From: Orobanche coerulescens
Taxonomy: Eukaryota; Streptophyta; Magnoliopsida; Lamiales; Orobanchaceae
Direction of reading: 5' to 3'
Assembly: GCA_033398695.1 (NCBI GenBank)
Contig: CM065815.1
Coordinates: 104,436,501-104,500,500 of the forward strand
Length of the DNA: 64,000 nucleotides
The notes under the pieces are model-generated. The model had not been told where the DNA came from. It ran no database searches and saw nothing but the letters and a program-made list of their open reading frames with translations. Numbering within the stretch: the stretch's first letter is position 1; every line of letters begins with the position of its first letter. The position numbers were made by a program, and so were the translations under genes. This document shows, piece by piece, positions 4,439 to 63,504 of the stretch.

Positions 4439-4443
4439 GATTA

Positions 4444-4456
4444 TGGTATCAGAGCC
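4444..4456 (+). promoter_or_regulatory. Primer-binding site of element A
   Basis: TGGTATCAGAGCC lies five bases after the LTR end and matches the 3' end of plant initiator-Met tRNA. It primes minus-strand cDNA synthesis in Ty3/gypsy and copia elements. Confidence 0.9.
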
Positions 4457-4683
4457 TTAGGTCTATGGATACCTAGGTTGTCGGTCTTTTGGGTCAAGTG
4501 AGTCGTCATTTGTCCACAGTATCACTACTCTGCCATCATCACAGTGCGACCGGTACTTGTAAGACCTCTTACTCTTCTGGTGTTTCCTTATTCGTTTTGC
4601 TTCTATTTTTGGTATTCTCGAGAATCGGTCACTTCGATGACGTGCGAATGAATTGTACTTACGTGCCTTGTGTGTTCTTCAGT

Positions 4684-5940: not shown

Positions 5941-7083
5941 CCCGATGCGGCGGTGGCTTCAGGTACCATTCATATTTTATCTCATCCGGTCCGTGTGCTT
6001 TTTGATACGGGTGCTACACATTCTTTTATTTTCTTGGAGTGTGTAGGCCTTTTGAATATAACTTGTTTGACTGCTTGCGATCCCTTCATTGTGAAACTAC
6101 CTAGCGGGGACAGAATTGTGGGAAACCAGGAGATTAAAGATTTTCCTGTGACTATATCCGGTATGGAATGGTTATCGAATCTGATTGTAGTTGATATGGT
6201 AGGTGAGGACGTGATCCTCGGCGAGGACTGGCTTGATAGTCACCAAGCGAATATGAATTACCGTACTAAGGTTATCACCATGATGACTAAAGACGGAATC
6301 GAGTACTCATTTTTGGGACGTAAGTCGGGCAAATCCAAGTTACTTATTAGCGCCATGAAGGCCGTAAAACTTTTGAATAAAGGTTGTACGGGCTATTGGT
6401 GTTATGCCTTGAAAACGGAAGGGAACGAAGTCGATTTCTCTTCAATTCCGGTTGTTAATGAGTATCCCGATGTTTTTCCGGACGATCTCCCGGGATTACT
6501 GCCAGATTGTGAGATAGAATTCTCTGTGGACTTAGAGCCAGATGCAGCTCTGATTTCTAAGCCACCTTATCGAATGGCACCTTCCGAGATGCAAGAATTA
6601 AAGAATCAGTTGGGAGAACTTCTAGAAAGAGGGTACATCAGACCGAGCACTTCGCCTTGGGGCGCGCCTGTTCTCTTTGTGAGAAAGAAGGATGGTTCAC
6701 TACGTTTGTGCGTTGACTACCGTGATCTGAACAAAGTGACCATCAAGAACAAGTATCCCTTGCCTCGTAGAGACGATTTATTTGATCAATTGCAAGGGGC
6801 TGCAGTTTTCTCGAAAATTGATTTAAGATCAGGGTATTATCAACTCTGGGTGAGGGAGTCCTACGTTCCGAAGACGGCATTTCGGACGAGATATGGGCAT
6901 TATGAATTTGTAGTTATGCCTTTTGGGTTGACTATTGCGCCGGCAGTATTCATGCAGTTAATGAATAAAATTTTCATCGAGTATCTCGACAGGTGTGTAG
7001 TCGTCTTTATTGACGACATTTTGATATATTCTCGAGATAAAGAGGAACATGCCCGACACTTGCATTTGGTGCTAGATATTTGA
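5941..7083 (+). pseudogene. pol: Protease and reverse transcriptase of element A
   Basis: It continues in the gag frame. The aspartic protease motif FDTGATHSF is at about 6001. The reverse transcriptase fingers and palm are clear: [20 protein letters not shown] near 6710 and the catalytic FIDD at 7006-7017. The usual FGLTNAP reads FGLTIAP, a likely damaging change next to the active site. The frame ends at TGA 7081-7083 because one T is missing from a run that has four in the homologous part of element D. Confidence 0.88.
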
Positions 7084-7698
7084 GAACCGAGCACCTCTAT
7101 GCAAAATTCTCGAAATGTGAATTCTGGTTAGAAGAAGTTATGTTTCTCGGCCATGTGATTTCGGCCGAAGGGGTTCGTGTAGACCCGCAGAAGATTGAGG
7201 CAGTGCTAGATTGGGCACCACCTAAAAATGTTAAGGAAGTCCGTAGCTTTTTGGGCCTTGCTGGGTATTACCGTCGGTTTGTCGAGGGGTTCTCGAAACT
7301 CACTCGGCCGCTTACCAAATTACTCCAGAAGACCGAAAAGTTTGTTTGGTCGGATGAGAGACAACAGAGCTTCGATGATCTAAAGAGACGTTTAACTTCA
7401 GCGCCGATTTTAAATTACCTCATGGTAGTGAGGGCTTTGCAGTTTATAGTGACGCTTCGGGTCAAGGTCTTGATGTGTGCTTATGCAGCATGACAAGAAG
7501 ATAGCTTTTGCATCACAACAACTAAAGCCATATGAGATGAATTATCCTACTCACGATTTGGAGTTGGCCGCAATTGTCTTTGCACTCAAGAATTGGCGGC
7601 ATTATTTGTATGGTTCCCCGTGTCGGATTTATACCGATCACAAGAGCCTGAAGTATATTTTCAGTCAGAAGGAGCTGAATATGAGACAGAGACGTTAG
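7080..7698 (+). pseudogene. pol: RT thumb and RNase H of element A
   Basis: After the frameshift the frame resumes with the RT thumb/connection ([18 protein letters not shown]) and RNase H. A second one-base loss near 7463 truncates the block before VLMQH, and the reading moves to the frame starting at 7477. RNase H residues around DLELAA and [10 protein letters not shown] are present. TAG at 7696-7698 replaces the conserved Trp of RQRRW. Confidence 0.85.
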
Positions 7699-7704
7699 TT
7701 AGAG

Positions 7705-8420
7705 TTGATAAAGGATTACGATTTGGAAATTCTTTACCACCCCGGAAAAGCCAATGTCGTCGCGGATGCTTTGAGCCGCAAATCGGCATCTCTTCAAATG
7801 CTCGAGGTTCTTACATCTCAGACGAAAATTCGTCAGGATTTAATTGAGCAAGGAATAGAAGTTTGGCTTCAACGAGTACAAGGACAGTTGTGTACTCTCG
7901 AAATTACTTCGTCCTTGGTTGATAACATCAAAGGGAAGCAGTGGAGTGACCCGATGATCTCTCAACTGAAAGAGGATGTAATTAAAGGAAAATCTCCTGG
8001 CTTTATGGTTCAAGAGGATAGTATTCTGAGATTTCAGGGCAGGCTTTGTGTTCCGAACGATTTAGAGTTGAGGCAGAGAATTCTCCGAGAAGCTCATGCT
8101 ACGCCTTACTCAATCCACCCCGGGACGAGTAAGATGTACAAAGATTTGAAACGTAATTTTTGCTGGAACAACATGAAGAAGGATGTCACGGAATTTGTAC
8201 TGTGGTGCCTGACGTGTCAACAAGTCAAGATCGAACATCAACGACCAGCGGGGTTGTTGAAACCGCTTCCCAATCCCGAGTGAAAGAGGGAAGACATTTT
8301 GATGGATTTCATCACTGGCATGCCGAGAACTCAGGCCGGAATGAATATGATTTAGGTAATTGTCGATCGGTTGACCAAGTCTGCACACTTTTTGGGTATT
8401 AAAAATACTTGGGGACCGGA
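7705..8420 (+). pseudogene. pol: Integrase of element A, N-terminal half
   Basis: In the same frame as the RNase H part. It has the H2C2 zinc-binding domain (HPGTSKMYKDL at about 8119 and CLTCQQ at about 8206) and the first Asp region of the catalytic core (MDFITGMPR). Two conserved Trp codons are stops (TGA 8281-8283, TAG at about 8353). At 8420 the core breaks off and runs directly into LTR sequence, so the second Asp, the Glu and the C-terminal domain are gone. Confidence 0.85.
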
Positions 8421-17686: not shown

Positions 17687-18005
17687 TGTTACGGTCGTAA
17701 GCCTTCCTTGTTACGGCCATAAGTTAAGTTCGTCAAAACCTGTTGATCCAGTCGCATAGTTACGGCCGTAAGTCAGTTGTTACGGCCGTAAGTTTTCTTG
17801 TTACGGCCGTATGATGTCTTCGTCCAAAACCTTGCCATTTCAGCAACATTTTCTACGGCCGTATTCCTTCATATGTTACGGCCGTAAGAGTTGAATGTTA
17901 CGGCCGTAATTCTTGATTCTTACGGTCGTATGTCACGTTCGTGAAATTTTAGAGAGTAGCCAGTGGGGGAGTTACAGCCGTAAGGAGAAATAGTTACGGC
18001 CGTAA
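17687..18005. repeat. TTACGGCCGTAA palindrome array in LTR C
   Basis: About eleven copies of the perfect palindrome TTACGGCCGTAA or one-base variants occur here. Within groups, starts are 20-23 bp apart (for example 17760, 17780, 17801; 17853, 17876, 17898, 17920; 17972, 17993). Groups are separated by spacers beginning TTCGTCCAAAACC or similar. The array stops about 12 bp before a TATA box. Confidence 0.9.
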
Positions 18006-18017
18006 CATTGGTCAGAC

Positions 18018-18027
18018 TATATATATC
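18018..18027 (+). promoter_or_regulatory. TATA box of LTR C
   Basis: ATATATATCT-type TATA sequence directly downstream of the palindrome array, followed by a pyrimidine-rich leader. This is the expected LTR promoter position. Confidence 0.55.
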
Positions 18028-28818: not shown

Positions 28819-29212
28819 TGTAATATCCGCAATTTTGATTTCCGGTAATTTTTGTTTTTCGACGGGAGTCCATTTTGATGACACGATTGTGACCGTTTCG
28901 TCATTCTGAGAATGATTAATTCTGCACTTTTTGACATCCGAGTTCATTTCGGTGTCGTTTTGTTGAGTTCCGTGTTCTTAAGCGACTTTTCCGCGCTTGA
29001 GTTCGATTCTTGCGAATCTCATTCGAAAATGTTGTTTTGGGTGTCTCGTAAGTTCATTCAACATTGTTGTACGTGTTGTCAGCTTCGGTTTGGTTATTCG
29101 TTGCCGTATCGTGATTTTCCGACATTTGGGGCCATTTTGTAATTTCCCAGAGTTGTGGGTATCCGTCGTCGTACCCATTTTTGAGAGTTCTGTTGCTGTC
29201 CTTCTGAGTCGT

Positions 29213-29587
29213 TAGCGAACGCTACACTTAATGGTTAGCGCGCGCTATGGTGCAGTTATTAGCGCACGCTACGCGTGTGGTAGCGCACGCTAACGGGTGG
29301 TGCAGAAACAGTCCAGAGGCTACTGGAGTGGGTTAGAACGTTGGTTAGCGCACGCTATTTGGTGACATAATGCGCGCTAGGGTGCATTGGTAGCGCACGC
29401 TAGGGGGAGGATAGCGCACGCTACCTGGTAGTTCAGGGCAGTCCAGGAGCTACTGGACTGGGTCTGAAGGTCTCTTTAGCGCACGCTAACACTTGTGGTT
29501 AGCGCATGCTAATAGTGTATTTTTGGTCAAGAGTTTTGTTCGGTGCCGCGATAGCGCACGCTAACCTTAATGATTAGCGCACGCTAA
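29213..29587. repeat. TAGCGCACGCTA array in LTR I
   Basis: Twelve near-palindromic boxes (TAGCG-CA-CGCTA and variants) start at 29213, 29236, 29260, 29281; 29346, 29370, 29391, 29412; 29477, 29500; 29552, 29575. Spacing within rows is 20-24 bp and row starts are about 131 bp apart. Between rows lies a repeated spacer containing CAGTCCAG..CTGGACTG. Confidence 0.9.
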
Positions 29588-29598
29588 TTTGTGTCCAG

Positions 29599-29606
29599 TA
29601 TAAATA
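29599..29606 (+). promoter_or_regulatory. TATA box of LTR I
   Basis: TATAAATA about 12 bp after the last palindrome box, the same relative position as in LTRs C, D and E. Confidence 0.6.
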
Positions 29607-45587: not shown

Positions 45588-45955
45588 TCTAATGCACGCT
45601 ATAGAACCTGCATAACGTACGCTAAAACTGATACATTACGCACGTTAAAGTGACATGGTTATGTACGTAATGGTTGAGTTGGTCTTCCAACTAGAATCTT
45701 CCTTTTGACGTGGATTGGGTTACTTTCGGCGGGCTAGAAGACAAACGAGTCAAACCCTTATAATGTACGCTATTCGCAAAGTTTAACGTACGCTACGGTC
45801 AGGCGCCTTACGTACGCTATTGCAGCCTACGTACGTAACAGATGAGTGCAATTCAGTCATTAGCCTCTGGACGACCTTTACATATGCTAACAGCAGAACA
45901 TTACGCACATAACGAGCATTCCGTACGTAAAGCATGGGACTTTAACGTACGTTAA
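45588..45955. repeat. TTACGTACGTAA-type palindrome array in LTR E
   Basis: About twelve boxes (TAACGTACGCTA, TTACGCACGTTA, CTACGTACGTAA, TTAACGTACGTTA and others) start near 45590, 45613, 45636, 45659; 45761, 45784, 45808, 45828; 45878, 45901, 45921, 45943. This gives three rows of four at about 20-24 bp spacing. A spacer between rows contains GTTGGTCTTCCAAC. Confidence 0.88.
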
Positions 45956-45968
45956 TAAGATCGAGTGC

Positions 45969-45976
45969 TATAAAAT
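45969..45976 (+). promoter_or_regulatory. TATA box of LTR E
   Basis: TATAAAAT about 14 bp downstream of the last palindrome, followed by a C-rich leader. Confidence 0.6.
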
Positions 45977-46955
45977 AACACACCCTCCTTCATTTTCCCC
46001 GACCTAAAATATGAAGTGAAGCATTCTTGAAGCACTTCCATAGCCTTATACTTGATTCTTGGCCTCTCATACACTTGAATTAACATAGAGGAGGTGATTT
46101 CGTAAGCTCCGGTGAAGATTATTCAAGTCGTTTGATCCATTCTTCGTTTCTACCCGTGGCTCTTATTGATTGTGATCCATCTTCATTGTTCTTCATCTAT
46201 TAAGGTAAGTCTATCCATACTAGAAGTAATCTACTCAATGTTGTTGATTATACTTGTTAGATTATGGGCACTTGAGTAGATTTTACTAACTCTCGAAGAT
46301 AATCTAATCAAACGAACTTGTAGTAATCGGGACTATCATTGTTCATATATTTAGTTTTCGTGCAACTCATTGTAACAATCACATTCGAAATTTCCATCTT
46401 AGTTGATATTGAAATTTTAAAACTTGACGAACCAATTGTAGGAGATTTTCGTAGGAATTTGTCACCGTTTGATAAACTAGTCATAACCCACTATTGTCAT
46501 ATAATTATCAACGTTAAAATAACAATGGGAATAAATCCGATGGTATTATTGTCATTAAGAATCAACACCGAGATCATTACGTAGATGGTAACCCACCGGT
46601 TAAAGTAATCGGAGTTAAAAATTTGATTAGAAGTATGGGATTCGACTATGCTATGGTTGTTTGTTGCTAGCCGAACGATGATTGGGATAATCTTGTCGAG
46701 CAAATCATTATAGCTAAATGTTAATCATAGAGTTGAACGGCATAGTAGTACGTATCATTTGTGAATTTAGGAACACGATATTAGTTTAGGCGGAATCAGA
46801 ATAAGTTGAGAATTCGGTTAGGAGGGGGAAGGGAAAACAAGTTTTATTCTTCTTTATCCATGCAAAGTATTAATCAAGGAGTACGTGACTAAGTTAAGCT
46901 CGATCGGGCATGGAGATCCCCAGTTATCATAAGGCACCTACCGTCGGATCAAAGG

Positions 46956-48983
46956 TGTAACACCCCCAAGACATTCAGGGCATATTACAGTGCCGTGGAC
47001 CCCACACTGTGGAATCCACCAGGCTAACATACCAAACAAGACATTCGACAACGACAACAATGATCAATAATACGACAATTCAAATAAGATTACAATCCGA
47101 CAATAAAATCCAACATTAATCCATTTCCCAAACAGGAACACAACATTAACAATTTTGTAAAAGAAGTACTCGAGTACTTAAACCAGTTTTTATAAAACAA
47201 AATCCCCAAAACAAGATATCAAATATTCGACATATAGAACATCAATAATCAACTTCTGGACAGTATCATGCTCACCCATCATCCTCATACGGCTCTAGTG
47301 CTCGATTTTCCCCACGATCAATACCTGAAATACAAAAAGTATTTCCCCCATTTAAGGGGTTAGCGACAACTGCTAGTGCAAGTACAATCCATTTGAACTA
47401 CATTCTAATCAGATGAATATATGAGCCAAAAAGTCATTTTAGAAAACATTTTATATTCCGGAATATTTATGATGTACACACAAAACACATTATCTCCAAC
47501 AAATCATAATTCAAAGTTAACCGTTGGCACGAGACTCACGGCCACCGTACCCCGCAGAGCCCCGTCGGACATCCCTGGGTGGCTAACCACAGTTCGTGAT
47601 ACGCACACACACGGCAATACGTATCCCTAGAGGCCCCGTCGGACCCTCCCTAGGTGAACATACACATATCTCCCCACAACAACCACATATAGCCATAATT
47701 CAAATACTAGAACATGTAAACAAATGTAAAGTACTTGCCTTTGAGACATTCTTGAAGAAACGGAGATGAAACACGACTACGAACGGTCGGTGGAAAGCGG
47801 CGGTTCCTAAACGAAGGATCAATACGATTCAGTCCCAACGGACAACAATATTCTCTTGGAATACACCACTAATCCCGGTTACAATATACGACAATAGACG
47901 GTCAATTGATACGGGCGAGGGTTTACGCAAAATCTCCCCGTATCGATAATTCACGGATTAAAATCAAGGAATTTGGATTTGGAATCATTCAACAATCACA
48001 AACGGTGAAGAATATCATAACATACTGGAATAATTCGGTTCCAATTAGCAAAACCCGGAAAAACCCCCAAATTTGACGAGTTAGGGTTCTAGACGAAAAT
48101 ACCTTGATTTCGGATGATGGATGACGATTATGCTGATGATAATATGTTGGCACGACTCTACGGTGATGGAATGTGAATAGAACGCCGATCAGGACTGATG
48201 GAAATCGCCTCTGAGGTCGCACGTCGAAGAAACGAAGGAAAAAGAATGAAACTGCTCAAATCGCGCATTGGGCTTATATAATTGTGAAGTTAGTGCACGC
48301 TAATCGTCATATATAGCGTGCGCTAACGGGTCGTGATAGTCCGGTGGCTATTGCCACCATTCGTTAGCGTACGCTAACAAAGGGGGTTAGCGACGCTAAC
48401 GCTTATCGGTAGCGCACGCAAGGGAACAGGGGTAGCGTGCGCTACCTACATGCCAGTCAAAGATCGGCGATGTCACACCAGCAGAAGGCTGGTCGAGGGT
48501 CTAAAACACGAAACGCATTTACGAGACCAGAATCCGGGAACATAGACGCGAAGCATACAAGGCAGCGGAGCTAAGCGCTGAAAGAAAATACAATTCCGAC
48601 CACCGGAGGGTCCGTTATGCGACAACGAAACTAAGATTCCCTAAACTATTAGGAAATTACAAAAATGGCCCAAGTGCCCGAAAATCACGAAACGACGTCG
48701 GATTTACAAACCGAAAGTCTCCACATGACCAACTCAACCATACGAACTTGTACAAACCAAGAAACAACGAAAACGAACGAGTTTTACAAGAGACGAATGT
48801 TCATACGGCAAAACATGTCATAAAATGAAATTACGTGAAAACACCATCAACACTCGTCCAGATGGAAAAACTCCAAGAACAAAATAGATTCAAAATGTCG
48901 AAACGGTTACAGCGAGTCGATAAAAATAAACATACACCAAAAATGGAAACTGCTAAAAATAGAAAAAAATTACGGATATTACA
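46956..48983 (-). repeat. 3' LTR of element D
   Basis: It runs TGTAACACCCCC..ATATTACA in plus-strand reading and is paired with 53858-55881. On the minus strand it contains a palindrome array at 48445-48288 followed by a TATA box (48273-48280) and a twin hairpin at 47327-47359. Confidence 0.9.
48288..48445. repeat. TAGCGCACGCTA-type array in D 3' LTR
   Basis: Six boxes related to TTAGCGCACGCTAA and its complement TTAGCGTGCGCTAA, with a GGTGGC..GCCACC hairpin between two of them. It matches 55192-55346 apart from many small indels. Confidence 0.85.
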
Positions 48984-49020
48984 TTCTCCCCCTCTAAAAT
49001 AAAGTTTCGTCCCGAAACTT
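48984..49020 (-). promoter_or_regulatory. PPT and preceding palindrome of element D
   Basis: On the minus strand AAGTTTCGGGACGAAACTT (49020-49002) is followed by TTTATTTTAGAGGGGGAGAA, the polypurine tract that primes plus-strand DNA, directly before the LTR. Element I has the same arrangement. Confidence 0.85.
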
Positions 49021-49903
49021 AAGAATCAAAAAGCTCGGGGTATCTCGAACGCATATCCTCCTCTAGCTCCCACGTCGCTTCTTCTACTCCGTGCCTCGAC
49101 CATCGCACCTTAACCAAAGGAATGGTTTTGTGCCTTAACTGTTTGTCACGACGCTCCAAAATTCTGACGGGCCTCTCTTCAAACATAATATCCTTCTCGA
49201 TCTCCACGTCCCCAAAGTCAATAATGTGGGACGGGTCCGGAACATACTTCCTCAACTGAGAAACGTGAAATACGCTATGAACATGACTCAAAGACGGAGG
49301 TAAAGCTAAACGGTATGCCAACTCACCGACTCTCTCCAATATCTCGAAGGGCCCAATATACCTCGGACTGAGCTTCCCCTTTTTCCCAAAACGGAAAACT
49401 CCCTTCGTCGGAGACACTCTCAACAGAACATGATCTCCCACCTCAAACTCCAAAGGTCTACGCCTAACATCCGCGTAAGACTTTTGTCGACTCTGAGCAG
49501 CCAACATCCTCTTTCTAATCAATTCGACTTTCTCCCTCGTCTCCAACACAAGGTCCGGCTCGGTGCCAACCAAATCGGACGGCTCATCCCAACATATCGG
49601 TGATCGGCAATGTCGGCCATAAAGTGCCTCATACGGTGCCATCTTAATCGACGCGTGCCAGCTATTATTATAAGCAAACTCAATTAAGGCCAAATGCTCC
49701 TCCCAATTACTACTCGATCCTAACGCACACGCGCGCAACAAATCCTCGAGCGTCCGAATGGTAGTGCGTCGGATCGCCATCGATCCGGGGATGGAACGAA
49801 TAGCACAAACTAAGCTGAGTCCCCAATGCCTTAAGAACTTCATGCCAATTATGCGATACAAATCGGCCATCTCTGTCTGAAATAATGGTCCTCGGCGTAC
49901 CAT
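49019..49903 (-). CDS. pol: Integrase C-terminal part with chromodomain (D)
   Basis: It encodes [21 protein letters not shown] and the [19 protein letters not shown] integrase C-terminal fold, then [12 protein letters not shown] and a chromodomain ([21 protein letters not shown]) ending near 49022. Chromodomains direct chromovirus insertion to marked chromatin. The junction with the upstream core frame near 49750-49800 is shifted, and the catalytic Glu region (normally Q.ER) is not recognisable there. Without that shift this would be one polyprotein with the next entry. Confidence 0.88.
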
Positions 49904-51227
49904 GAAGCCTCACTATCTGAGTGATAAAAATACGAGCCAACTTTTTCGAACCCCAAGTATCCTTGATGCCCAGAAAATGTGCCGACTTAGTCAGTCGGTC
50001 TACAATTACCCATACCATATTCATACCAGTCTTCGTCCTCGGTAAACTCGTGACAAAATCCATAGAGATGTCCTCCCACTTCCATTCCGGGACGGGAAGC
50101 GGTTTCAATAATCCGGCTGGCCGCTGATGCTCAATCTTGACTTGCTGACAAGTCAAACACTTAGCTACAAACTGAACTACCTCCTTCTTCATATCGCTCC
50201 ACCAGAAATTCTTCCTCAGATCTTTATACATCTTACTCGAGCCCGGATGGACTGAGTATGGTGACGCATGAGCCTCTCGCATAATGCTCTGTCTCAGTTC
50301 CGAGTCGTTCGGAACACACAACCGACCTCGGAATCTCAACACGCCGTCCTCATGAATAACGAATCCCGGGGCTTTCCCCTTTCCTACACTCTCTCGAAGC
50401 TGAATAAACATCGGATCCTCTAACTGTCCCGACTTAATGTCCTCGACCAGAGATGAAGAAATCTCAAGAGTACGCAACTGCCCGGAACTCTCTGGCAGTA
50501 CAATCTCAATGCTCAACCTCATAAACTCTCGCTGAAGTCCCGACTGGGCCGTGAGTAACTCAAGCGCCCGAAGCGATACCGATTTCCGGCTCAAGGCATC
50601 TGCTACCACATTAGCCTTGCCCGGATGATAGAGGATCTCAAGATCGTAATCCTTAATCAGTTCCAACCATCTCCTCTGTCTCATATTAAGCTCATTCTGC
50701 GTGAAGATGTACTTCAGGCTCTTGTGATCGGTGAAAATCTGACACGACGAGCCATACAAGTAATGACGCCAGATTTCCAACGCAAACACAACTGCGGCCA
50801 ACTCAAGATCGTGCGTAGGGTAATTCAATTCATACGGTTTCAACTGACGGGAAGCATAGGCAATCGTCCTCCCGTGCTGCATAAGTACGCATCCGAGCCC
50901 TTGGCCCGAAGCATCACTATAAACGGAGAAACCATCATTACCACTCGGTAAAGCCAACACGGGAGCGGTCGTCAACCGCTTCTTCAACTCCTCAAAACTA
51001 TTCTGCCTCTCATCGGTCCACACAAACTTCTCCGACTTCTGTAACAAATTAGACAGAGGTCCAGCGAGCTTAGAGAACCCCTCGACGAATCTGCGGTAAT
51101 ACCCGGCTAATCCCAAAAAACTGCGGACCTCCTTCACGTTCTTGGGCGGCGCCCAACCCAACACTGCCTCTACCTTATGTGGGTCCACACGAACACGCTC
51201 GGCCGAGATCACATGACCGAGAAACAT
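49710..51227 (-). CDS. pol: RT thumb, RNase H and integrase core (D)
   Basis: Open over 505 codons. It starts at the RT thumb ([10 protein letters not shown]), then RNase H ([19 protein letters not shown] and [10 protein letters not shown]), the H2C2 domain ([23 protein letters not shown]) and the integrase core with the first Asp in MDFVTSLPR and the second in ISDRDGRF. The first codon lies within the gene, so this is a reading segment of the polyprotein. It breaks near 49800 before the catalytic Glu. Confidence 0.88.
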
Positions 51228-52359
51228 AACCTCCCGTAACCAAAACTCGCACTTTGAGAACTTCGCAAAAGATCCGAGTTCTCAAAATATCTAACACAAT
51301 ATGCAAATGACGGACGTGCTCCTCCTCGCTCCTCGAGTAAATCGGGATGTCGTCGATAAAAGCGACTACACACTTATCGAGGTACTCGATAAAGACTTTG
51401 TTCATAAGTCGCATGAACACGGGTAGTGCGTTAGTTAGCCCAAAGGCATAACCACAAACTCGTAGTGACCGTATCTCGTCCGAAAGGCCGTCTTGAATAT
51501 CGGTATCCTTCACTCGGGTGATAATACCCGATCTCAAATCAATCTTGAAAATACGATTGCCTTGCAACTGATCAAACAAATCATCAATCCTCGGGAGCGG
51601 ATACTTGTTTTTGATGGTCACTTTGTTTAACTCTCGGTAGTCGATACACAAACGAAGTGACCCATCCTTCTTCTTTACGAATAGGACCGGTGCGCCCCAA
51701 GGCGAAGCGCTCGTTCGAATATATCCCATGTCTAGCAACTCTCCCAACTGTTTCTTCAACTCAAGCATCTCGGCAGGCGCCATCCGGTATGGCGTCTTAG
51801 AGATAGGTGCTGCACCCGGCTCTAAATCGACGGTAAATTCAACCTCTCGGTCCGGTGGCAAACCCGGCAACTCATCTGGAAAAACGTCAGGATACTCACA
51901 TACTACCGGAATAGACGAGAGCTCGACTCCCCCTTCTTCCGATCTCAAAGCGTAACACCAATAACCCGTGCAACCTCCTCGAAGAAGTCTCACCGCCTTT
52001 AAGGCGCTGATCAGTAATCTCTGGCTACTCCGCTTACGCCCCACAAAGGAATGCTCGGTACCGTCAGAGGCCAACATCGAAACCGTCCTCATTCTATAAT
52101 TCATGATCGCCCCATGACGGTCCAGCCAATCCTCACCCAGAATCAAATCCTCATCTCTAATATCTACCGCAATCAGATTAGAAGGCCAAACCCTCCCTGC
52201 GATACTCACTGGAAAATCTCTAACCTCACGATCCCCCACGATGCTATCCCCACTAGGAAGTTTAACAACAAAAGGCTCACAAGCAACAAGGCAATCAACA
52301 TGCAGGCGACGCACACAATCCATAGATATAAAAGAATGCGTAGCACCAGAATCGAACAA
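51175..52359 (-). pseudogene. pol: Protease and reverse transcriptase (D)
   Basis: The protease motif FDSGATHSF (D-S-G instead of D-T-G) opens the segment, followed by [12 protein letters not shown]. The RT has [23 protein letters not shown] and FGLTN, and FIDD near 51355. Between about 51440 and 51540 the protein sequence departs from the family and then returns, as two or more compensating small indels would cause. The 3' end also shifts out of frame near 51290. Confidence 0.83.
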
Positions 52360-52499
52360 TACGGAAACAGGATGATCAAGGATGTGGACGGTACTGTGGC
52401 CACCGTCGCGTCGGGATCTCTGCTCGTCTCATCTCGTACACACGGGGCGGAATGAGACCCGCACTAGAAGCTCCCCCTCTAGAAGGTGACCACGACCTC

Positions 52500-53763
52500 G
52501 ACCTCTACCAAAACTCTGCCGGTGAGAGCGTCAGTGTCGATTCACACTCGGCTCTCCGCGGTGGGCTGATATCCGAGTAATCGGGCCCGAGCCGCATCCG
52601 TACAAAACTTAGCACGATGACCCATACGACCACAAGCAAGACACCGAATCGGAGGCCTATCACACTCACTCATCATGTGGCCGGACAGCGGTTGAAGCAT
52701 GTAGGACCACGAACGGAACCAGCGAGCGGACCTAGAACCGTTTCCTCGACCAGCGATGGCGGCCCGACTCGAAGACTCGCGAACAGTGAGTCTTCGGATA
52801 TCCTCTGACTTGCCTCCCGTGGCCGGTGGTTTTCTGTTTCTTTCCTTCGGTTGCCGTCTCTGCCATGAAAAAACGACATCTCATAAGCCATCGCTTTATT
52901 CTGATATTCTTTCAAAGTCGTGCACCCCAGACCCGACATGTAGTGGCGCACTCTCGGTTTCATCCGCATGTCAAAGTGGCGGATCTTATCGAGCTCATCG
53001 CGGACTTGGTTTCTTACATAATGTAGCTGTGATTGTAGTCTTTGATGGCTTGAGATATAGGTACATCTTGGGGCTTAGCCTCAAAGAAGGCTCGGATCCT
53101 CCCTCTTTCACCGGCCACGATGCACTCGTCTTCCATCGAGATCCGGAACTCGCCCACGTAGCCGCCCGGTCACGCGGTTTCACCGCTTGCCACCACGTCA
53201 TTTGCCTCCTTGGCGAGGAAATCTTGAGCAATGGGTACTTTCCTCTCCTCGGGGCAATTAGCGCCTCAAACACTTTCTCCATCTCGAGCCCAAATCTCCC
53301 AACCGGAAGGGTGGAAGCACCATCAAGCTGCGGAGGACGCATACGAATCACGTCTGAAGTAGCTTATCATTCTTTGGACCAGTGGCGGAACCGGGTTGGC
53401 ATTAGCATGGCCGACCAGAACGGCTGAGTCGGTAGCGTCATCTGGTTCGCTACTGTTGTAAAATGTTGGCCACTCCAACATTCTCATGAGCATTACGGAG
53501 CTAGCGGTGGTCTGTGACCTCCGGAACTAGGGGAACACTGTTCGACAAGGAAGGCATCGCGAATCGGTTCAGTGATCGGACATGGCCGCCCCACCGCGCC
53601 ACGTCCCCTACCGCGTCCGCGTCCTCTACAGCGGAATCGAAGAAGCAACGGGTAAGTACAATTCAAACGCAAAACGCAAAAGATACTAAGACAGGAATAG
53701 AACAGAACGGTGAAACGAGTCAAGTTAGGAAAACTTACGAGCACCGGCGTACTGAGATGATGG
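52500..53763 (-). pseudogene. gag: Gag of element D, heavily frameshifted
   Basis: Recognisable pieces occur in several frames: an RGRGRGRGRG start near 53620, MIRMRPPQLDGAST and KVFEALI near 53270, WWQAVKPRDRAATW, MRMKPRVRHYMSGLGCTTLKEYQNKAMAYEM near 52950, then CPATGHMMSEC and CGRMGHRAKFC zinc knuckles near 52690-52600. The indel load is far higher than in the adjoining pol. This may be decay or consensus error. Confidence 0.7.
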
Positions 53764-53841
53764 CATAACAGTGATACTGTCCCAAAAACGACACTTAACT
53801 AGACCCAAATGACCCACAGCCTAGGTATCCATAAACCTAAG

Positions 53842-53853
53842 CTCTGATACCAT
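53842..53853 (-). promoter_or_regulatory. Primer-binding site of element D
   Basis: TGGTATCAGAGC on the minus strand just after the 5' LTR, identical to A's site. The following leader (TTAGGTTTATGGATACCTAG) is also shared with A. Confidence 0.9.
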
Positions 53854-55174
53854 ATTCTGTAATACCCCCAAGACATTCAGGGCATATTACAGCGCCGTGG
53901 ACCCCACACTGTGGAATCCACCAGGCTAACATACCAAACAAGACATTCGACAACGACAACAATGATCAATAATACGACAATTCAAATAAGATTACAATCC
54001 GACAATAAAATCCAACATTAATCCATTTCCCAAACAGGAACACAACATTAACAATTTTGTAAAAGAAGTACTCGAGTACTTAAACCAGTTTTTATAAAAC
54101 AAAATCCCCAAAACAAGATATCAAATATTCGACATATAGAACATCAATAATCAACTTCTGGACAGTATCATGCTCGCCCATCATCCTCATACGGTTCTAG
54201 TGCTCGCTTGTCCCCACAATCAATACCTGAAATACAAAAAGTATTTCCCCCATTTAAGGGGTTAGCGACAACTGCTAGTGCAAGTACAATCCATTTGAAC
54301 TACATTCTAATCAGATGAATATATGCGCCAAAAAGTCATTTTAGAAAACATTTTATATTCCGGAATATTTATGATGTACACACAAAACACATTATCTCCA
54401 ACAAATCATAATTCAAAGTTAACCGTTGGCACGAGACTCACGGCCACCGTACCCCGCAGAGCCCCGTCGGACATCCCTGGGTGGCTAACCATAGTTCGTG
54501 ATACGCACACACACGGCAATACGTATCCTTAGAGGCCCCGTCGGACCGTCCCTAGGTGAACATACACATATCTCCCCACAACAACCACATATAGCCATAA
54601 TTCAAATACTAGAACATGCAAACAAATGTAAAGTACTTGCCTTTGAGACATTCTTGAAGAAACGGAGATGAAACACGACTACGAACGGTCCGGGTGGAAA
54701 ACGACGGTTCCTAAATGAAGGATCAATACAGTTCAGTCCCAACGGACAACAATATTCTACTGGAATACACCCATAACCCCGGTTACAATATACGACAATA
54801 GACGGTCAATTGATACGGGCGAGGGTTTACGCAAAATCTCCCCGTATCGATAATTCACGGATTAAAATCAAGGAATTTGGATTTGGAATCATTCAACAAT
54901 CACAAACGGTGAAGAATATCATAACATACTGGAATAATTCGGTTCCAATTAGCAAAACCCGGAAAAACCCCCAAATTTGACGAGTTAGGGTTCTAGACGA
55001 AAATACCTTGATTTCGGATGATGGATGACGATTATGCTGATGATAATATGTTGGCACGACTCTACGGTGATGGAATGTGAATAGAACGCCGATCGGGTGA
55101 TGGAAATCGCCTCTCGAGGTCGCACGTCAAGAAACGAAGGAAAAAGAATGAAGCTACGCTCAAAGCGCATTGGG

Positions 55175-55183
55175 CTTATATAG
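55175..55183 (-). promoter_or_regulatory. TATA box of element D
   Basis: CTATATAAG on the minus strand, directly following the palindrome array. This is the probable promoter of genomic RNA. Confidence 0.6.
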
Positions 55184-55191
55184 TGTGAAGT

Positions 55192-55346
55192 TAGCGCACG
55201 CTAAGCTGTCATATATAGCGTGCGCTAACGGGTCGTGATAGTCCGTGGCTCGCCACCATTCGTTAGCGTCACGCTAACAAAGGGGTTAGCGTCGCTAGCT
55301 TGCTTATCGGTAGCGCACGCAGGAGAACAGGGTAGCGTGCGCTACC
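55192..55346. repeat. TAGCGCACGCTA-type array in D 5' LTR
   Basis: The counterpart of 48288-48445. On the minus strand it ends about 10 bp before the TATA box. Confidence 0.85.
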
Positions 55347-55881
55347 TACATGCAGCCAAGATCGCCGCTGCGATGTCACACCAGATGAAGCTGCGTCGAG
55401 GTCTAAAACACGAAACGTCGACGAGACCGAGAATCCGGGAACATAGGCGAAGCATACAAGGCAGCCAGAGCTAAGCGCTGAAAGAAAATACAATTCCGAC
55501 CATGAGGGTCCGTTATGCGACAACGAAACTAAGATTCCCTAAACTATTAGGAAATTACAAAAATGGCCCAAGTGCCCGAAAATCACGAAACGACGTCGGA
55601 TTTACAAACCGAAAGTCTCCACATGACCAACTCAACCATACGAACTTGTACAAACCAAGAAACAACGAAAAGGAACGAGTTTTACAAGAGTCGAACGTTC
55701 ATACGGCAAAACATGTCATAAAATGAAATTACGTGAAAACACCATCAACACTCGTCCAGATGGAAAAACTCCAAGAACAAAATAGATTCAAAATATCGAA
55801 ACGGTTACAGCGAGTCGTTAAAAATAAACATACACCAAAAATGGAAACTGCTAAAAATAGAAAAAAATTACGGATATTACA

Positions 55882-56783: not shown

Positions 56784-56986
56784 ATGTCACGCCAAGGAGC
56801 TAGGAGGGTGGTGACTGATGCTCAAGGTTCCGCCACCAACCACGATGGGGACAGGAACACTGTCGAGACCCATCCTGCTGGGGACCAGCCACCACCAGTT
56901 AATCTAAATGATCAGGAGGCGGAACGCCAGAATAACAACCCGGGAGGCATGGACCCAACTTTCATTCAAGCCCTTGCCCAAGCTAT
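56784..56986 (+). CDS. gag: Gag of element E, N-terminal part (split by F)
   Basis: The ATG at 56784 (MSRQGARRVV) is chosen because it lies about 190 bp after the primer site, as in related elements. The N-terminus is polar with a PPPVN stretch and reaches MDPTFIQALAQAI, where element F is inserted. The frame is preserved across the insertion when one copy of the 5-bp target duplication is ignored, and gag continues at 63510. Confidence 0.8.
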
Positions 56987-58561
56987 TGACACGCTTTTAG
57001 TGTAACTATCGCAAGTGCACGATATCGTATCAAGTAGTAAAGTGGACTTTTTGAGTCCGGTTTATCGATCCCACAAGGAAGTTTGGTTATAATTTGAATT
57101 ATACACTATTAGTCTATTTTTATAGATACTTAAGATGAGTGAAACACACAATTAAAAAGTTTGGTTTAATAATTACAAAGAAATTGCAATAATAGTTCTA
57201 ATATTATAAGGAAATAAAAAGATAGCAATAATAATAGATTGATTATCGATAAAATGAAATAGTTGGGATTACAAACTTAGTTTGTCATTAGTTATAAAAG
57301 ATGTATTGGAGATCATAAGATGAATTTACTTATTATGTTGTGTAGATTCGATTTTCCTTAAAAAGACAGTTTCTCTTTCGAACTATAAAACGTCCCTTAC
57401 ATATTGAATCAATCCACTATATTTCTATGTTGATTGGCTTCAATACATAGCATTAGGATTTATGAAAATAACTCAAAGAATTATCTACGGACTAGGGGTA
57501 TATTTCTATCCCCTAGAACAACTTAGAGTGAAGATCATTTGATCTAATCAAACATATTTTCTTTCGAAACATATGAATACCATAAATATCTTCATTAATT
57601 GGCCAAATAAATAAAGATTGTTAAAACAATGAAAATCACACACAATAATAAGTAATTCACAATAGATCTTTTATACAAACATAAATAACATGACTAACCT
57701 TGTTTATAATCCCAACTAAAGATTACTTAGCCCATGAAGGGTTTATTACACATATTACAAGCTTTGGTGGTCATGTTTAGTTGAAACAAGAGAAAGAATT
57801 GATCCTAACTCCCTTAGTAGATAAAGGAGATAGAAACAATAAACTCTCTGAACAACATATGTTATACCACACTTACAAAGATCACTCAAGAACACAAGTG
57901 TGTTCTTCACACAAAAAGAAAAGTTTACAAGAAAATGGAAAATTATAAGATGAATGATAAATGATGAAGGATCTAAGGGGTCTATTTATACACTTAAAGT
58001 CATCTAATAGCTCCAAAACTCCAGCATTATTACATTAGATCGGATCAATGCCAGCCATCCCCTCAATAATACACAAAAAGTATAAAAAATTAGACAAATC
58101 ATAGTAATCTGTCAAGAGTTACGGCCGTAACATTCAGGAGTTACGGCCGTAACTAAGGTGACTTACGGCCGTAACCCCAGAATATTACGGCCATAACTCA
58201 ACCGTAAATTTGCTCATTTGAAGCTTGGATAGTTACGTTTTCGGGAAATTTCTCGGACTTTGCGTTTTTGCCCAGATCTTCTTCGGATGATAACTTTTGA
58301 TATATAACTCGATTTTGAATCGGAAAAGCCGAATTCGTCTCGGAAAGCCCTACAACATGAATATATCAAAATTCAATAAAGAGAATATTTATTAAACATG
58401 TTGTTTCTTGAGTAATTCAGTTATTTAATCCGATCATCATCCGATAAAAATAAAATTATTAAAACTAATAAATTAAAAGCAAAAACGAGTAGACTAGCTC
58501 AATTATGGGTGAATTTTATCGATACAAACCATGGATAAGTGTACAAAACTGACACTTATCA
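56987..58561 (-). repeat. 3' LTR of element F
   Basis: On the minus strand it starts TGATAAGTGTCAG and ends AAGCGTGTCA. A palindrome array lies at 58119-58198 and a TATA box (TATAAATAG on the minus strand) at 57982-57990. Confidence 0.92.
58119..58198. repeat. TTACGGCCGTAA array in F 3' LTR
   Basis: Four boxes at 58119, 58141, 58163 and 58185, exactly 22 bp apart. The last has one change (TTACGGCCATAA). Confidence 0.95.
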
Positions 58562-58575
58562 CACCCCCAAACTTG
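58562..58575 (-). promoter_or_regulatory. Polypurine tract of element F
   Basis: CAAGTTTGGGGGTG on the minus strand directly before the LTR start. A second copy of the same phrase lies at about 59761-59776. Confidence 0.75.
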
Positions 58576-60178
58576 AATTCTTGCTAGTCCCGAGCAAGAC
58601 TCTTTATTATTCACACTCCAAAAATAAAATAAAAAATAAAACAAAAATAAGAAAATTAATACACACATAAATTAAAAAATATAAAAAGAGAAAAGGAGAT
58701 CAAAATGCAATTAAAAAACAACAACTACTTTATACGGTAGATAGAAATGAATCAAGATTCAAAATAAATCTACTAATGTTTTTGAAGTTAAAACACGGTT
58801 TTTATTTTGTAATTCCAAAATGTAAGGTTTCCCCCCAATAGGTTGATTATTTCTTTCCCACTCGTGATACACACGACTCCCTTTAATGGTTGCTCTCGAT
58901 CACTCGTTTATTTTTCGACTCAATATGAAGAAGAATTTCATTGGCGTCATCAAATATTGTGATTTTCATAAAATTGAGTGTATTGAAATCCAGCCGCTAA
59001 TTAATTCAAATCTGCTCATAAACTACGTCCCTTTTAGTGATAGCTTTCACACCGTTATTTGCTAATGTGTAGCTCTTTTCACTAACACAATTTCTATCTC
59101 ATTATTTTTCTTTCGTAAAAAAGGTGATAGCTTTCACACCGTTATTTGCTAACGTGTAGCTCTTTTCACCAATTTTTCTGAGACGGCAGCTACGCACCAA
59201 CAATGGTTAGTCCTTTATTTTTCGCAAAATTTAAGACTTCCAAAATTAGGCATTTATTCTTGCTCAACACTTCTCCTTTTCGTCATTTAAGTTTTTAGGT
59301 GATAGCTTTCACACCGTTATTTGCTAACGTGTAGCTCTTTTCACCAATGACTCCTTTTTTAGGGAATAGAATATTTTCAGAAAATCATTTTTATATTTAA
59401 GAATGAAAAATCAAAAACTCCACAAATTAAGTAAATTTCAGTTTTATTTTTCATCAACCAATTGATTCTTCTTTTCTCAAGGTAACGAATGACTCGATTT
59501 TATATGATAATTACAAGGCTCGGAAAGAGAGAAATTTTTTTTGGAATATACAATTTTTTTACCGGTTAAAACGATTTTAGAAGCTTGTATATAGCTAATT
59601 TATTGGTGTTATGGCCAGATCTAGAAATCTCAAAAATCAAAATACTATAAATATATATATATATATATATATAAAATAAAAAAAATAAGGCAAATAACCA
59701 AATCAATCAAAACACACCAAAAACCAAATCAATCAAAACACACCAAAATAATTAAACAAACCACCCCCAAACTTGAAAATAAAACTGTCCTCAGTTTTAA
59801 AAATAAAAAACATAAAAATTAATGCAGAAAAGCAGAATACTCCCTGTTAAGAAAGTTGATGTCTGAGCTAACGCCTTTTAGAATCTGCAAGAGAATAAAT
59901 ATACGAGGCACACAACAAAAGAAAATAAAATATACTCGTAAGTATAACACAATTTTTAAGATGCGCATCAAGAAAGTCCGAAGAGTCGCCTTACGCTGCC
60001 ATCAAAGTTTTTATAAAAGCAAAACACGAAATAAACATTACAGTAATGAAATAAAAATACATAAATCACGAATAGATGCGCGTCAAGAGATCAAGAAGAA
60101 ACTCCTTAAGCTGCCATCATTTAGCACGATTATTACACACGACATAAAGTAAAAATACAAGAGGTCCGACACGGGTTA
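58576..60178 (-). other. 3' untranslated region of F with dispersed repeats
   Basis: No coding frame is supported on the element's sense strand. It contains three copies of a ~48-bp motif (GTGATAGCTTTCACACCGTT .. AACGTGTAGCTCTTTTCAC) at 59036, 59123 and 59298. It also has two copies of a ~46-bp motif (ATGCGC.TCAAGA .. TGCCATCA) near 59961 and 60075, and a (TA)n tract at 59651-59673. Confidence 0.7.
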
Positions 60179-60817
60179 TCAAAGGGAGAGGAATGAATCC
60201 ACTTTTCGTTTTCTCACGGTAAAATCTTCTACCCAGACAATTTTAGCTAGAGCTGGTTCTGGTTGAGGAACAAATTCATTGAGTTTTTTGATTAGTTCTT
60301 CTGGTGTTGTTGCAACGACTATGATTCGTTTTGCACGCTCGGAAATAAAGCTCTTTTCAGCAGAGTAGTCGATGAAAGACAGTAAACCATCAAAGAAACC
60401 ATTGACATTAAGCACTCCTATTGGTTTTTGATGAACATTTAGCTGGGCCACATGAAAAAGTTCCTCAAGGGTGCCAAAACCACCGGCAAGGGCGATAAAG
60501 GCGCCAGAATTATTTATCATGTGAGTTATGCGATCTTGCATATTCACAGATCTAAACTCATCTCCAATAGTTGACCCGGTGATTTTACTTTCAGCCAGAG
60601 GTTTTGGGATTATTCCTAACACTCTTACTCCTTCCATATAGGCGTATGACTCGTCCCATTAATCCTAGACTTCCTCCTCCGTAAACTACATGAATGCATT
60701 TTTCTCTAAGGTACGACCCAAGTTGTGGGTTTGCTTGATAAAGCATGCCTCTTTTCAATTAGCTCCACCAAAAATGCATCTTGTGTTAAATTTTTTTGTT
60801 GAAGATGATGGCTCCAT
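60179..60817 (-). pseudogene. LOG-like: LOG-type cytokinin-activating enzyme, captured copy
   Basis: Homologous to LOG proteins, which release free cytokinin bases from nucleoside monophosphates. The start at 60817 fits a full-length protein of about 213 codons. Visible motifs are YGGGS (60669-60683), GLMG, VLGIIPKPL, GFGTLEE (60461-60487; the family PGGxGT reads AGGFGT) and KPIGVLNVNGFFDGLLSFID. Two one-base shifts, near 60765 and near 60650, break the N-terminal third; 152 codons stay open to the stop. No introns are present, although plant LOG genes have several. It lies in the sense direction of F. A TATA-like CTATAAATAA at 60909-60900 and a CT-rich leader precede it. Confidence 0.85.
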
Positions 60818-60899
60818 TTTTGAAATGAATATTTTTTTTTAGAGAGAAACAGAGAAAAGTGCAAGTTTGAGGGATGAATGAAAGAAACCAGTAGAAAGT

Positions 60900-60909
60900 T
60901 TATTTATAG
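60900..60909 (-). promoter_or_regulatory. TATA-like box upstream of the LOG copy
   Basis: CTATAAATAA on the minus strand lies about 85 bp before the LOG start codon, followed by a pyrimidine-rich leader. It could allow independent transcription inside the element; this is inference. Confidence 0.35.
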
Positions 60910-61130
60910 AAGAAAAAGAAGGTAAAAATTGTTTAACAAGTTTGTGATTGCGTTTGATTGTGCTTCAACTACTCAATAGAATAATGAAAACTTTTATCGC
61001 GTATCACATTTTTTTATTGAGTAATTCTCACCACACGACAAAAATAAAAGATACTTACGCGTATGTACGGTAGTTGTGATTGTGGCTCACATCTTCCTCG
61101 ATTTTACGTTGAAAGCGGCCTAAACGCCTT

Positions 61131-61672
61131 CTATGAGTCGGGAAGAAGCTTCCCATCCAATATTCTTACAAATTGGCAAACAGGGTCTTTTAACGTCAGA
61201 TTCCCAAGACGTTGTTCATATTCTGGTTTGAATTTATTCCACAAACATTGAATTCCGTAATACACAAGTCCACTAGGATGCGTGTCAAGAGAAATTTCGA
61301 TATTATCTAAATTCTCCTTATTCAGACCATCATTAATGAACTGAATTTTATCTTCTCTGTTTGTAGATGGAATTCCTAAAGATCGACATTTTGCATTACA
61401 GTTCCATCTAGCACATTTATAGCAAACGGATAGTATCTTTGCTCGTCGTTTCTTGGCATATGAACTTTTCCAAGCCACAGTAAAAATCTAGTTCGTGTTT
61501 CGTGAATTCACCTTCTATTCTTACTTTGGCTTCGATAATGAATCTTATGTCAAAAGGTATGCTTTTATTAAAGCAACCTCATCCTCTCAAGCCTTGTCTT
61601 GTAAATTTTTAAAATTGCATTTTTGCTTAGAAAGGGAAATCTTTTTTCAATTTTAAACAATATTTCGTCCAT
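61131..61672 (-). pseudogene. Small basic cysteine-rich ORF (carlavirus NABP-like layout)
   Basis: It starts at 61672 (MDEILFKIEKRF), giving about 180 codons in two overlapping frames with a shift between about 61480 and 61567. The order is a helical basic N-terminus (LKIYKTRLERMRLL), IIEAK, then SSYAKKRRAK directly before CYKCARWNCNAKC and GIPSTN..DKIQFIND. A basic patch, a four-Cys cluster and a G-I-[SP]-x-N step are in the order seen in carlavirus cysteine-rich nucleic-acid-binding proteins. A 60-residue C-terminal extension has no match I know. An Ogre-type extra ORF1, also located just after the primer site, is the main alternative. A second copy is at 16979-17345. Confidence 0.5.
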
Positions 61673-61893
61673 GATAAAAAAAACAAAAATAAAAAGACAA
61701 TGAAAATAATTGAATAAAATATCTACAAATATCAGTTGTTGTGGGAAACTGAAAAATCCGACTTTAATAGTCACGGAGTACCGTTATCCGCCACTTGACC
61801 GGACAAACACAATTTAGTACTAAGTTACAACGTCGAGAAATTTGTACCTATAAAAATAGTTTACAATGTAAGATTTCAAATATAACTTATACT

Positions 61894-61911
61894 TCCCCGG
61901 CAACGGCGCCA
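61894..61911 (-). promoter_or_regulatory. Primer-binding site of element F
   Basis: TGGCGCCGTTGCCGGGGA on the minus strand, matching the 3' end of plant Asp tRNA, six bases after the 5' LTR. Confidence 0.92.
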
Positions 61912-61917
61912 AAAACT

Positions 61918-63504
61918 TGACACGCTTTTAGTGTAACTATCGCAAGTGCACGATATCGTATCAAGTAGTAAAGTGGACTTTTTGAGTCCGGTTTATCGAT
62001 CCCACAAGGAAGTTTGGTTATAATTTAAATTATACACTATTAGTCTATTTTTATAGATACTTAAGATGAGTGAAACACACAATTAAAAAGTTTGGTTTAA
62101 TAATTGCAAAGAAATTGCAATAATAGTTCTAATATTATAAGGAAATAAAAAGATAGCAATAATAATAGATTGATTATCGATAAAATGAAATAGATGGGAT
62201 TACAAACTTAGTTCGTCATTAGTTATAAAATATGTATTGGAGATCATAAGATGAATTTACTTATTATGTTGTGTAGATTCGATTTTTCTTAAAAAGACGG
62301 TTTCTCTTTCGAACTATAAAACGTCCCTTACATATTGAATCAATCCACTATATTTCTATGTTGATTGGCTTCAATACATAGCATTAGGATTTATGAAAAT
62401 AACTCAAAGAATCATCTAAGGACTAGGGGTATATTTCTATCCCCTAGAACAACTTAGAGTGAAGATCATTTGATCTAATCAAACATATTTTATTTCGAAA
62501 CATATGAAGACCATAAATATCTTCATTAATTGGCCAAATAAAAAAAGATTGTTAAAACAATGAAAATCACACACAATAATAAGTAATTCACAATAGATCT
62601 TTTATACAAACATAAATAACATGACTAACCTTGTTTATAATCCCAACTAAAGATTACTTAGCCCATGAAGGGTTTATTACACATATTACAAGCTTTGGTG
62701 GTCATGTTTAGTTGAATCAAGAGAAAGAATTGATCATAACTCCCTTAGTAGATAAAGGAGATAGAAACAATAAACTCTCTGAACAACATATGTTATACCA
62801 CACTTACAAAGATCACTCAAGAACACAAGTGTGTTCTTCACACAAAAAGAAAAGTTTACAAGAAAATGGAAAATTATAAGATGAATGATGAATGATGAAG
62901 GATCTAAGGGGTCTATTTATACACTTAAAGTCATCTAATAGCTCCAAAACTCCAGCATTATTACATTAGATCGGATCAATGCCAGCCATCCCCTCAATAA
63001 TACACAAAAAGTATAAAAAATTAGACAAATCATAGTAATCTGTCAAGAGTTACGGCCGTAACATTCAGGAGTTACGGCCGTAACTAGGGTGACTTACGGC
63101 CGTAACCCCTGAATGTTACGGCCATAACTCGGCTTCGTAAATTTGCTCATTTGAAGCTTGGATAGTTACGTTTTCGGCCCAGAATTTCTCAGACTTTGCG
63201 TTTTTGCCCCAGATCTTCTTCGGATGATAACTTTTGATATATAACTCTGATTTTGAATCCGGAAAGACTGCCGAATTCGTCTCGGAAAGCCCTACAACAT
63301 GAATATATCAAAATTCAATAAAGAGAATATTTATTAAACATGTTGTTTCTTGAGTAATTCAGTTATTTAATCCGATCATCATCGGATAAAAATAAAATTA
63401 TTAAAACTAATAAATTTAAAGCAAAAAACGAGTAGACTAGCTCAATTATGGGTGAATTTTATCGATACAAACCATAGATAAGTGTACAAAACTGACACTT
63501 ATCA
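61918..63504 (-). repeat. 5' LTR of element F
   Basis: Partner of 56987-58561. Differences are mostly scattered substitutions, with a group of indels near 63130-63270. A TATA box lies at 62913-62922 on the minus strand. Confidence 0.92.
63048..63128. repeat. TTACGGCCGTAA array in F 5' LTR
   Basis: Four boxes at 22-bp spacing, as in the other LTR. The fourth is again the TTACGGCCATAA variant. Confidence 0.95.

Follow-up and report, generated by a model that had tools for sequence, protein, structure and literature searches.

Arrays of palindromic boxes near TATA-like elements as a putative exchangeable promoter module of plant LTR retrotransposons

Near-identical palindromic boxes stand in arrays within the LTRs of the retrotransposons studied here, and most arrays end shortly before a TATA-like element. 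The window, by which we mean the whole 64,000-nucleotide stretch that was analysed (C15:104436501-104500500 of a 3.65-Gb assembly), is a piece of plant chromosome consisting of nested LTR retrotransposons. We favour the reading, to which we give a probability of roughly 60%, that such arrays are swappable upstream arrays of dimeric host-factor sites and form a promoter module of the LTRs.

Each array would act as the upstream activator region of its LTR promoter, offering near-identical sites to dimeric, sequence-specific proteins that the host would supply and whose binding would activate the element. The sites would mostly stand 20-24 nt apart in small groups, with the last one usually 10-14 nt before the TATA. 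This genome has at least four site classes, namely d (TTACGGCCGTAA), b (TAGCGYRCGCTA), a (TWACGTACGTWA) and c (TGNGCCGCGGCACA), with different proteins or family members presumably reading each. An LTR lineage would switch class wholesale, the array, TATA and leader being exchanged or rebuilt while the flanking LTR stays homologous, and recombination would be the route of exchange.

Palindrome arrays in the window

The original prediction described palindrome arrays in five LTR families (C, I, E, D and F), each family having its own palindrome. All of the named arrays were found in the window (Table 1), and C was correctly described as having about eleven boxes that end just before its TATA. 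The assignment of one palindrome to each family was wrong, as C and F have one word (class d), D and I have another (class b), and E is mixed, with class-a boxes intermixed with b-like forms. At up to two mismatches, the class-d word has 21 matches in the window versus 1.5 expected. C, I, E and D do have their arrays in the place beside TATA that was said to be kept in all five families, but F does not, there being no TATA match within 100 nt on either side of its array.

Table 1. Arrays, TATA-like sequence matches and carrier elements in the window
Feature	Position	Strand	Description
Array C	17689..18005	+	11 boxes of TTACGGCCGTAA (class d), at most 2 mismatches; spacing 20-23, gaps 49-52
TATA-like element of C	18018..18026	+	TATATATAT; 12 nt past last box; sequence match
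LTR I	start ~28819	+	begins with TGTAATATCCG
Array I	29212..29587	+	12 boxes, TAGCGCACGCTA type (class b)
TATA-like element of I	29599..29606	+	TATAAATA; 12 nt past last box; sequence match
Array E	45589..45955	+	~11 boxes (class a); mix of TTACGTACGTAA-, TAACGTACGTTA- and TAGCGTACGCTA-like boxes
TATA-like element of E	45969..45977	+	TATAAAATA; 14 nt past last box; sequence match
Element D	46955..55881	-	LTRs ~46955-48983 and 53857-55881; interior with pol domains
TATA-like element, D copy 1	48273..48280	-	TATATAAG; 10 nt past last box; sequence match
Array D, LTR copy 1	48290..48445	-	~5-6 class-b boxes, part degenerate
TATA-like element, D copy 2	55175..55182	-	TATATAAG; 9 nt past last box; sequence match
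Array D, LTR copy 2	55191..55345	-	twin of D copy 1
Element F	56986..63504	-	LTRs 56986-58561 and 61917-63504; 3.4-kb interior with LOG-like ORF
TATA match of F copy 1	57983-57990	-	in LTR direction, 129 nt from array
Array F, LTR copy 1	58119..58196	-	4 boxes of TTACGGCCGTAA, one per 22 nt
Array F, LTR copy 2	63050..63127	-	twin of F copy 1

The pol domains place D and the C family in Ty3/gypsy, and this classing covers these two carriers. The interior of D contains RVP_2, RVT_1, RNase H, Integrase_H2C2 and SH3_Tf2-1 above the Pfam cut-off, with rve (28.8 bits; cut-off 32.6) and Chromo (22.5; cut-off 25.1) below it. The C-family interior (4477-8283) has RVP_2, RVT_1, RT_RNaseH, Integrase_H2C2 and SH3_Tf2-1 above and, again, rve and Chromo below; the region around it (3660-8414) starts with the LTR end of C (97%) and is 67% identical to D. 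Chromodomain Ty3/gypsy elements should have protease, RT, RNase H and integrase followed by a chromodomain, and D and the C family may belong to them, perhaps as Tekay-like members. The TGGTATCAGAGC contained in the sequence past the D LTR is presumably an initiator-Met primer site. Element F differs from D in its LTR ends and in its primer-binding region, the sequence past its LTR being TTTTTGGCGCCGTTGCCGGGG, presumably an Athila-type site. The LTRs of C, D and I have parts in common, directly or via fetched loci, and E is linked to them via locus L005b (80-84%). Within I, a module of ~133 nt is duplicated.

Abundance in the genome and in random stretches

The palindrome arrays are real and lie far above chance. 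A de novo detector, which required at least four copies, at up to two mismatches, of a perfect 12-mer palindrome, was run on ~267 kb made up of the window (in 8 overlapping pieces) and a random sample of 20 stretches of 10 kb (200 kb) drawn from the 15 largest contigs within their first 103 Mb, all of one species. It gave 22 clusters, 14 of them in the random 200 kb; mirror repeats gave none and Markov shuffles gave one in ~0.8 Mb. Three of the 22 were set aside, two because they are the 175-bp satellite of the window and one (L008:4904) for being without LTR or TATA, and the removal of the latter leaves 13 arrays in the random stretches, or ~1 per 15 kb. Copy 2 of D was overlooked by the detector and is recovered by the pattern search. 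It was in the random stretches that the fourth class, c, was met.

The satellite is arranged in tandem at 31142-33515, where 14 copies of ~175 bp are 62-82% alike to the reference copy, and ACTAGTACTAGT-like palindromes occur at nine places in it, at the satellite period. The cluster set aside in the random stretch (L008:4892-5091) is a GC-rich group of CCGCCTAGGCGG-like words, likewise free of TATA or LTR signs.

Exact counts on one strand of the genome reach 1,309,842 for the class-b word (reversed control 108), 184,551 for the class-d word (reversed control 83) and 59,884 for the class-c 14-mer TGTGCCGCGGCACA (reversed control 4), all of which reflect amplified elements and not independent events. 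A 14-base pattern of class b is TTARCGYRCGYTAA. When the class-d half-site is given an AT centre (TTACGATCGTAA), the genome holds 853 copies (reversed control 39). The contrast between 853 copies with the AT centre and 184,551 with the GC centre indicates that the boxes depend on their precise sequence, as would be expected of sites for specific proteins; being self-complementary and CG-rich, put forward earlier as the common property of the boxes, is therefore not the whole requirement. A scan of viral contigs for paired boxes gave 0 matches.

For the tallies that follow, loci L001-L004 were left out of every analysis, L018b and L021a, which are cut by the end of their stretch, out of the TATA count, and the twins D2 and F2 out of the box tallies. 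The class-d sample, 20 loci chosen by the class-d word, represents one end of one contig.

Distance to TATA

In 28 of the 36 arrays with readable flanks, the last box lies 9-20 nt before a TATA-like element, and in one more it lies 5 nt before it. Twenty of these 29 distances are 10-14 nt; 10 and 12 nt are the commonest, and the distribution lacks a single mode. A strict TATAWA within 36 nt occurs on one side of 21 of the 36 arrays and on the opposite side of 1. With looser TATA forms, which were picked after the sequences had been viewed, the numbers are 29 and 2. Because many arrays were oriented by their TATA, the fair figure is the two-sided count, in which TATAWA is found on 22 of 72 sides compared with 3.2% of random windows (P ~5e-16), and on 12 of 32 sides when the 20 loci chosen by the class-d word are removed (P ~1e-10). 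Seven of the 36 arrays (L008, L010, F1, L025, L026, L028 and L030) have no TATA match within 36 nt; among these, L028 and L030 have a TATA 32-33 nt off, and a TACAAATA is present in L008.

The same preference is seen genome-wide for class b. On both strands, the box followed by TATAWA after 8-15 nt occurs 113,099 times, compared with 19,670 times after 17-24 nt, and the latter number is near the chance estimate of ~21,600 per eight-base range (from the 3.2%); these counts include amplified families, and some boxes are counted double at TATATATA, an extended TATA. A range of 28-35 nt (87,522 occurrences) proved unusable as a distance control, since in the matches listed it mainly catches the next box, ~23 nt further upstream, and the range of 17-24 nt was taken instead. 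The first 100 places listed yield 35 distinct linkers between box and TATA, which fall into 19 groups. Across these 35 the sequence varies and the length is kept, 26 of them being 11-12 nt.

Spacing and conservation of the boxes

Arrays contain from 2 to 18 counted boxes. The distance from one box to the next was measured 145 times; it is 20-24 nt in 97 cases, including 49 at exactly 23 nt, and further groups are found at 49-53 and 63-66. Toward the promoter end, classes b, c and d often have two boxes, a gap and then three or four boxes, and class a often has four boxes at 23-18-23. Helical phasing was considered and rejected: a Rayleigh test is significant at periods 10 to 11, but the signal comes from the peak at 23 nt, a length that does not make an integer number of turns, so that we do not claim any phasing.

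Boxes and spacers behave differently. Within arrays, the mean likeness is 0.88 among boxes, 0.54 among short spacers and 0.52 among shuffled spacers (14 of 18 arrays, the other four having fewer than three short spacers each). Between LTRs, the boxes are better conserved than the spacers in 9 of 11 pairs (P < 0.02), and in the twin pairs D1/D2 and F1/F2 no difference between the two is seen. Both comparisons favour boxes, since a box was recognized by its resemblance to a consensus, and the 11 LTR pairs overlap and are not independent.

The two halves of a box covary slightly, with agreement at 891 of 1141 paired positions versus 873 when halves are swapped within arrays (P = 0.0055). Class c departs from a strict dyad, as one of its outer positions is free and the partner of that position is fixed. 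The earlier proposal, in which a dyad is what is recognized at the promoter, agrees well with the TATA distance, the 20-24 nt spacing, the contrast between boxes and spacers and the slight covariation, but less so with the form of class c.

In several of the ~53-nt gaps of class-b arrays (for example 29293-29345 and 29424-29476 in the window, and loci L012 and L018), a second imperfect dyad, AGTCCAG...CTGGACT, can be recognized by eye. A further factor might thus have its place between the groups of boxes.

Change of class on one LTR lineage

All four palindromes occur on one LTR lineage, the flank of which is 77-88% identical to that of I. Array I (class b) is embedded in sequence that matches locus L010 (class c) over 691 bp upstream (85%) and 500 bp downstream (78%), and locus L020 (class a, four boxes) over 345 bp (85%) and 1,525 bp (74%). 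Eleven class-d loci have the same 345-bp flank as I at 77-86% identity; for L010, the alignment to this flank is limited to 189 bp (88%). A tree of the 345-bp flank (18 rows) has two sides supported at 100/100, each with classes b, c and d. Five class changes are needed on this tree, and the strongly supported branches alone force two per class. Over its 18 rows, the class labels show no clustering beyond what shuffling them produces, and hence the tree does not give the direction of class change.

The converse is seen in C and F, which have the same palindrome, yet their LTR ends differ. A 381-bp stretch located 340 bp upstream of the C array is 83% like the interior of F, so an exchange of sequence between the two elements, and not convergence, may be behind this. 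Taken together, the different arrays on the same flank and the same box in C and F argue for readers outside the elements and for a promoter module that can be replaced.

That related elements have different words in the same place suggests that they can switch between activating host proteins. An extension, which we hold to be possible rather than probable, is that the retrotransposons of this plant draw on a few promoter addresses that can stand in for one another, every one of them corresponding to a different dimeric host factor, and that lineages repeatedly trade the module of array and TATA, so that distant elements agree and sisters differ. If this is true, the addresses in use would amount to a record of a contest about the host factors that transposons come to exploit. 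The natural changes of box class on a homologous LTR offer a ready comparison for finding the reader, and they allow one to ask whether a switch follows silencing or activation. The box words are, moreover, a simple means to locate LTR promoters in large plant genomes.

Alternative explanations

A first alternative is that the arrays act as RNA or DNA structure, with U3 transcripts forming hairpins that feed small-RNA silencing, a role that has been proposed in maize Sireviruses. The RNA of the arrays does fold strongly (z-scores of -6.4 for C and -5.7 for I), and in maize Sireviruses small RNAs are described as being in excess on palindrome-rich LTR regions, according to the accessible text of two studies (PMC10760457, PMC5311732). 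However, when the boxes were kept and the spacers shuffled, the native sequences folded no better than the shuffles in C (-113.9 vs -127.3) and E (-95.4 vs -99.6); native I was ~3 sd and the array of locus L013a ~1.6 sd better folded. The comparable folding of such box-preserving shuffles in C and E implies that the fold of the array RNA follows from the boxes. A hairpin, furthermore, requires neither a spacing of 20-24 nt nor a short distance to TATA, and it should not tell an AT from a GC centre ~200-fold. After the shuffling test, the hairpin as the selected property was set aside as the main reading, and we consider it unlikely.

It is somewhat less likely still that the arrays are the targets of anti-silencing proteins encoded by the elements themselves, similar to VANC of the VANDAL transposons, with class changes reflecting co-evolution. 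VANDAL elements are described as having dense short motifs whose build-up and change run in parallel among related copies, but the accessible text of these reports contains no description of VANC motifs as palindromes (PMC5735166, PMC10398659). Nor did an element-encoded reader appear when 19 of the 48 stop-to-stop fragments of the window with 110 aa or more were compared with Pfam, in which we found gag-pol domains, one LOG-like domain, two other domains below the cut-off, or nothing.

The arrays could also be a neutral by-product, in which slippage and unequal recombination amplify U3 palindromes and high-copy elements spread whatever arrays exist. Large families do inflate the copy numbers, and a module duplication is visible in I. 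However, boxes that are alike among short spacers that are unrelated are hard to derive by plain tandem duplication, and the TATA linker, of kept length and varying sequence, also speaks against this origin, which we judge to be very unlikely.

Least probable is that the arrays are dense platforms for CG methylation in which CG density counts and not the word, because, although the observed/expected CpG ratio is 1.28 in arrays with flanks versus 0.99 in all sampled sequence, the spacers have no CG enrichment (0.87) and a palindrome with an equal number of CGs is ~200 times rarer.

Relation to known systems

The exchangeable promoter module that we favour most closely resembles the RM boxes of Sireviruses, for which Bousios et al. 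2010 is our source in the part accessible to us (PMC2829016). There, as here, the upper half of the LTR contains a cluster of many near-identical palindromic CG boxes, shortly past which a conserved TATA follows, and the box word varies by element; the class-d word even includes the CGG-CCG core. RM boxes are defined by at least 8 palindromic copies per element, compared with which we count 11 in C, 12 in I and ~11 in E, and ~5-6 in D and 4 in F per LTR. A TATA shortly downstream is found here as well, 9-20 nt away in 28 of 36 arrays. Unlike the RM boxes, which occur in Ty1/copia Sireviruses and were called Sirevirus-specific, the arrays of D and the C family belong to carriers whose interiors have Ty3/gypsy pol domains. 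In addition, classes a and b are without the CGG-CCG core (as is one Sirevirus element), class c has CCGCGG, and four box classes are found on one LTR lineage. For RM boxes, a common binding factor was not found (PMC2829016).

Relatives in the Tnt1 superfamily (Tnt1A/B/C, Retrolyc1 and Retrosol) also differ chiefly in U3, which was termed 'modular evolution' (PMC1838419). These are Ty1/copia elements, whereas what is exchanged here is an array of palindromes with a regular layout; neither palindrom nor tandem occurs as a term in the accessible text of that paper. The VANC/VANDAL system of Arabidopsis shares with our arrays the dense short motifs in non-coding DNA that change together, but VANDAL elements are DNA transposons with a reader that they encode themselves (PMC5735166, PMC10398659). 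Structured LTR regions of maize are similar in having palindrome clusters in Copia LTRs, and they differ in that maize Ty3 (RLG) elements are generally described, in the accessible part of the source, as having no obvious structure peak, as opposed to the Ty3/gypsy LTRs with arrays described here (PMC10760457).

In a partial search of open-licence PMC titles and abstracts, which does not establish absence, no description of such arrays in Ty3/gypsy LTRs was found, and a search of the open-licence literature for the exact box words gave unrelated papers. We regard the arrays as a known device in another superfamily, with several interchangeable words on one lineage and a very high copy number.

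Captured gene and twin LTRs

An ORF in the interior of element F (60182-60658, minus strand) matches the Pfam family Lysine_decarbox, which is LOG-type and by name cytokinin-activating. The best homologues listed are Orobanche proteins with at most 83% amino-acid identity, two of which represent 244 and 328 members, and the plant is therefore probably one of the Orobanchaceae, a relative of the broomrapes. The ORF is apparently a captured host gene that was amplified by an LTR element bearing class-d boxes.

Indels between twin LTRs tend to lie near CG. In D (46919-48983 vs 53820-55881) this applies to 14 of 18 indels, compared with 43% of random positions, and in F (56986-58561 vs 61917-63504) to 4 of 6, compared with 16.5%. 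The pattern may reflect sequencing or assembly error at methylated CG, in which case some boxes would look degenerate, or it may be an odd mutation pattern. The twin LTRs of D differ by 43 transitions and 47 transversions.
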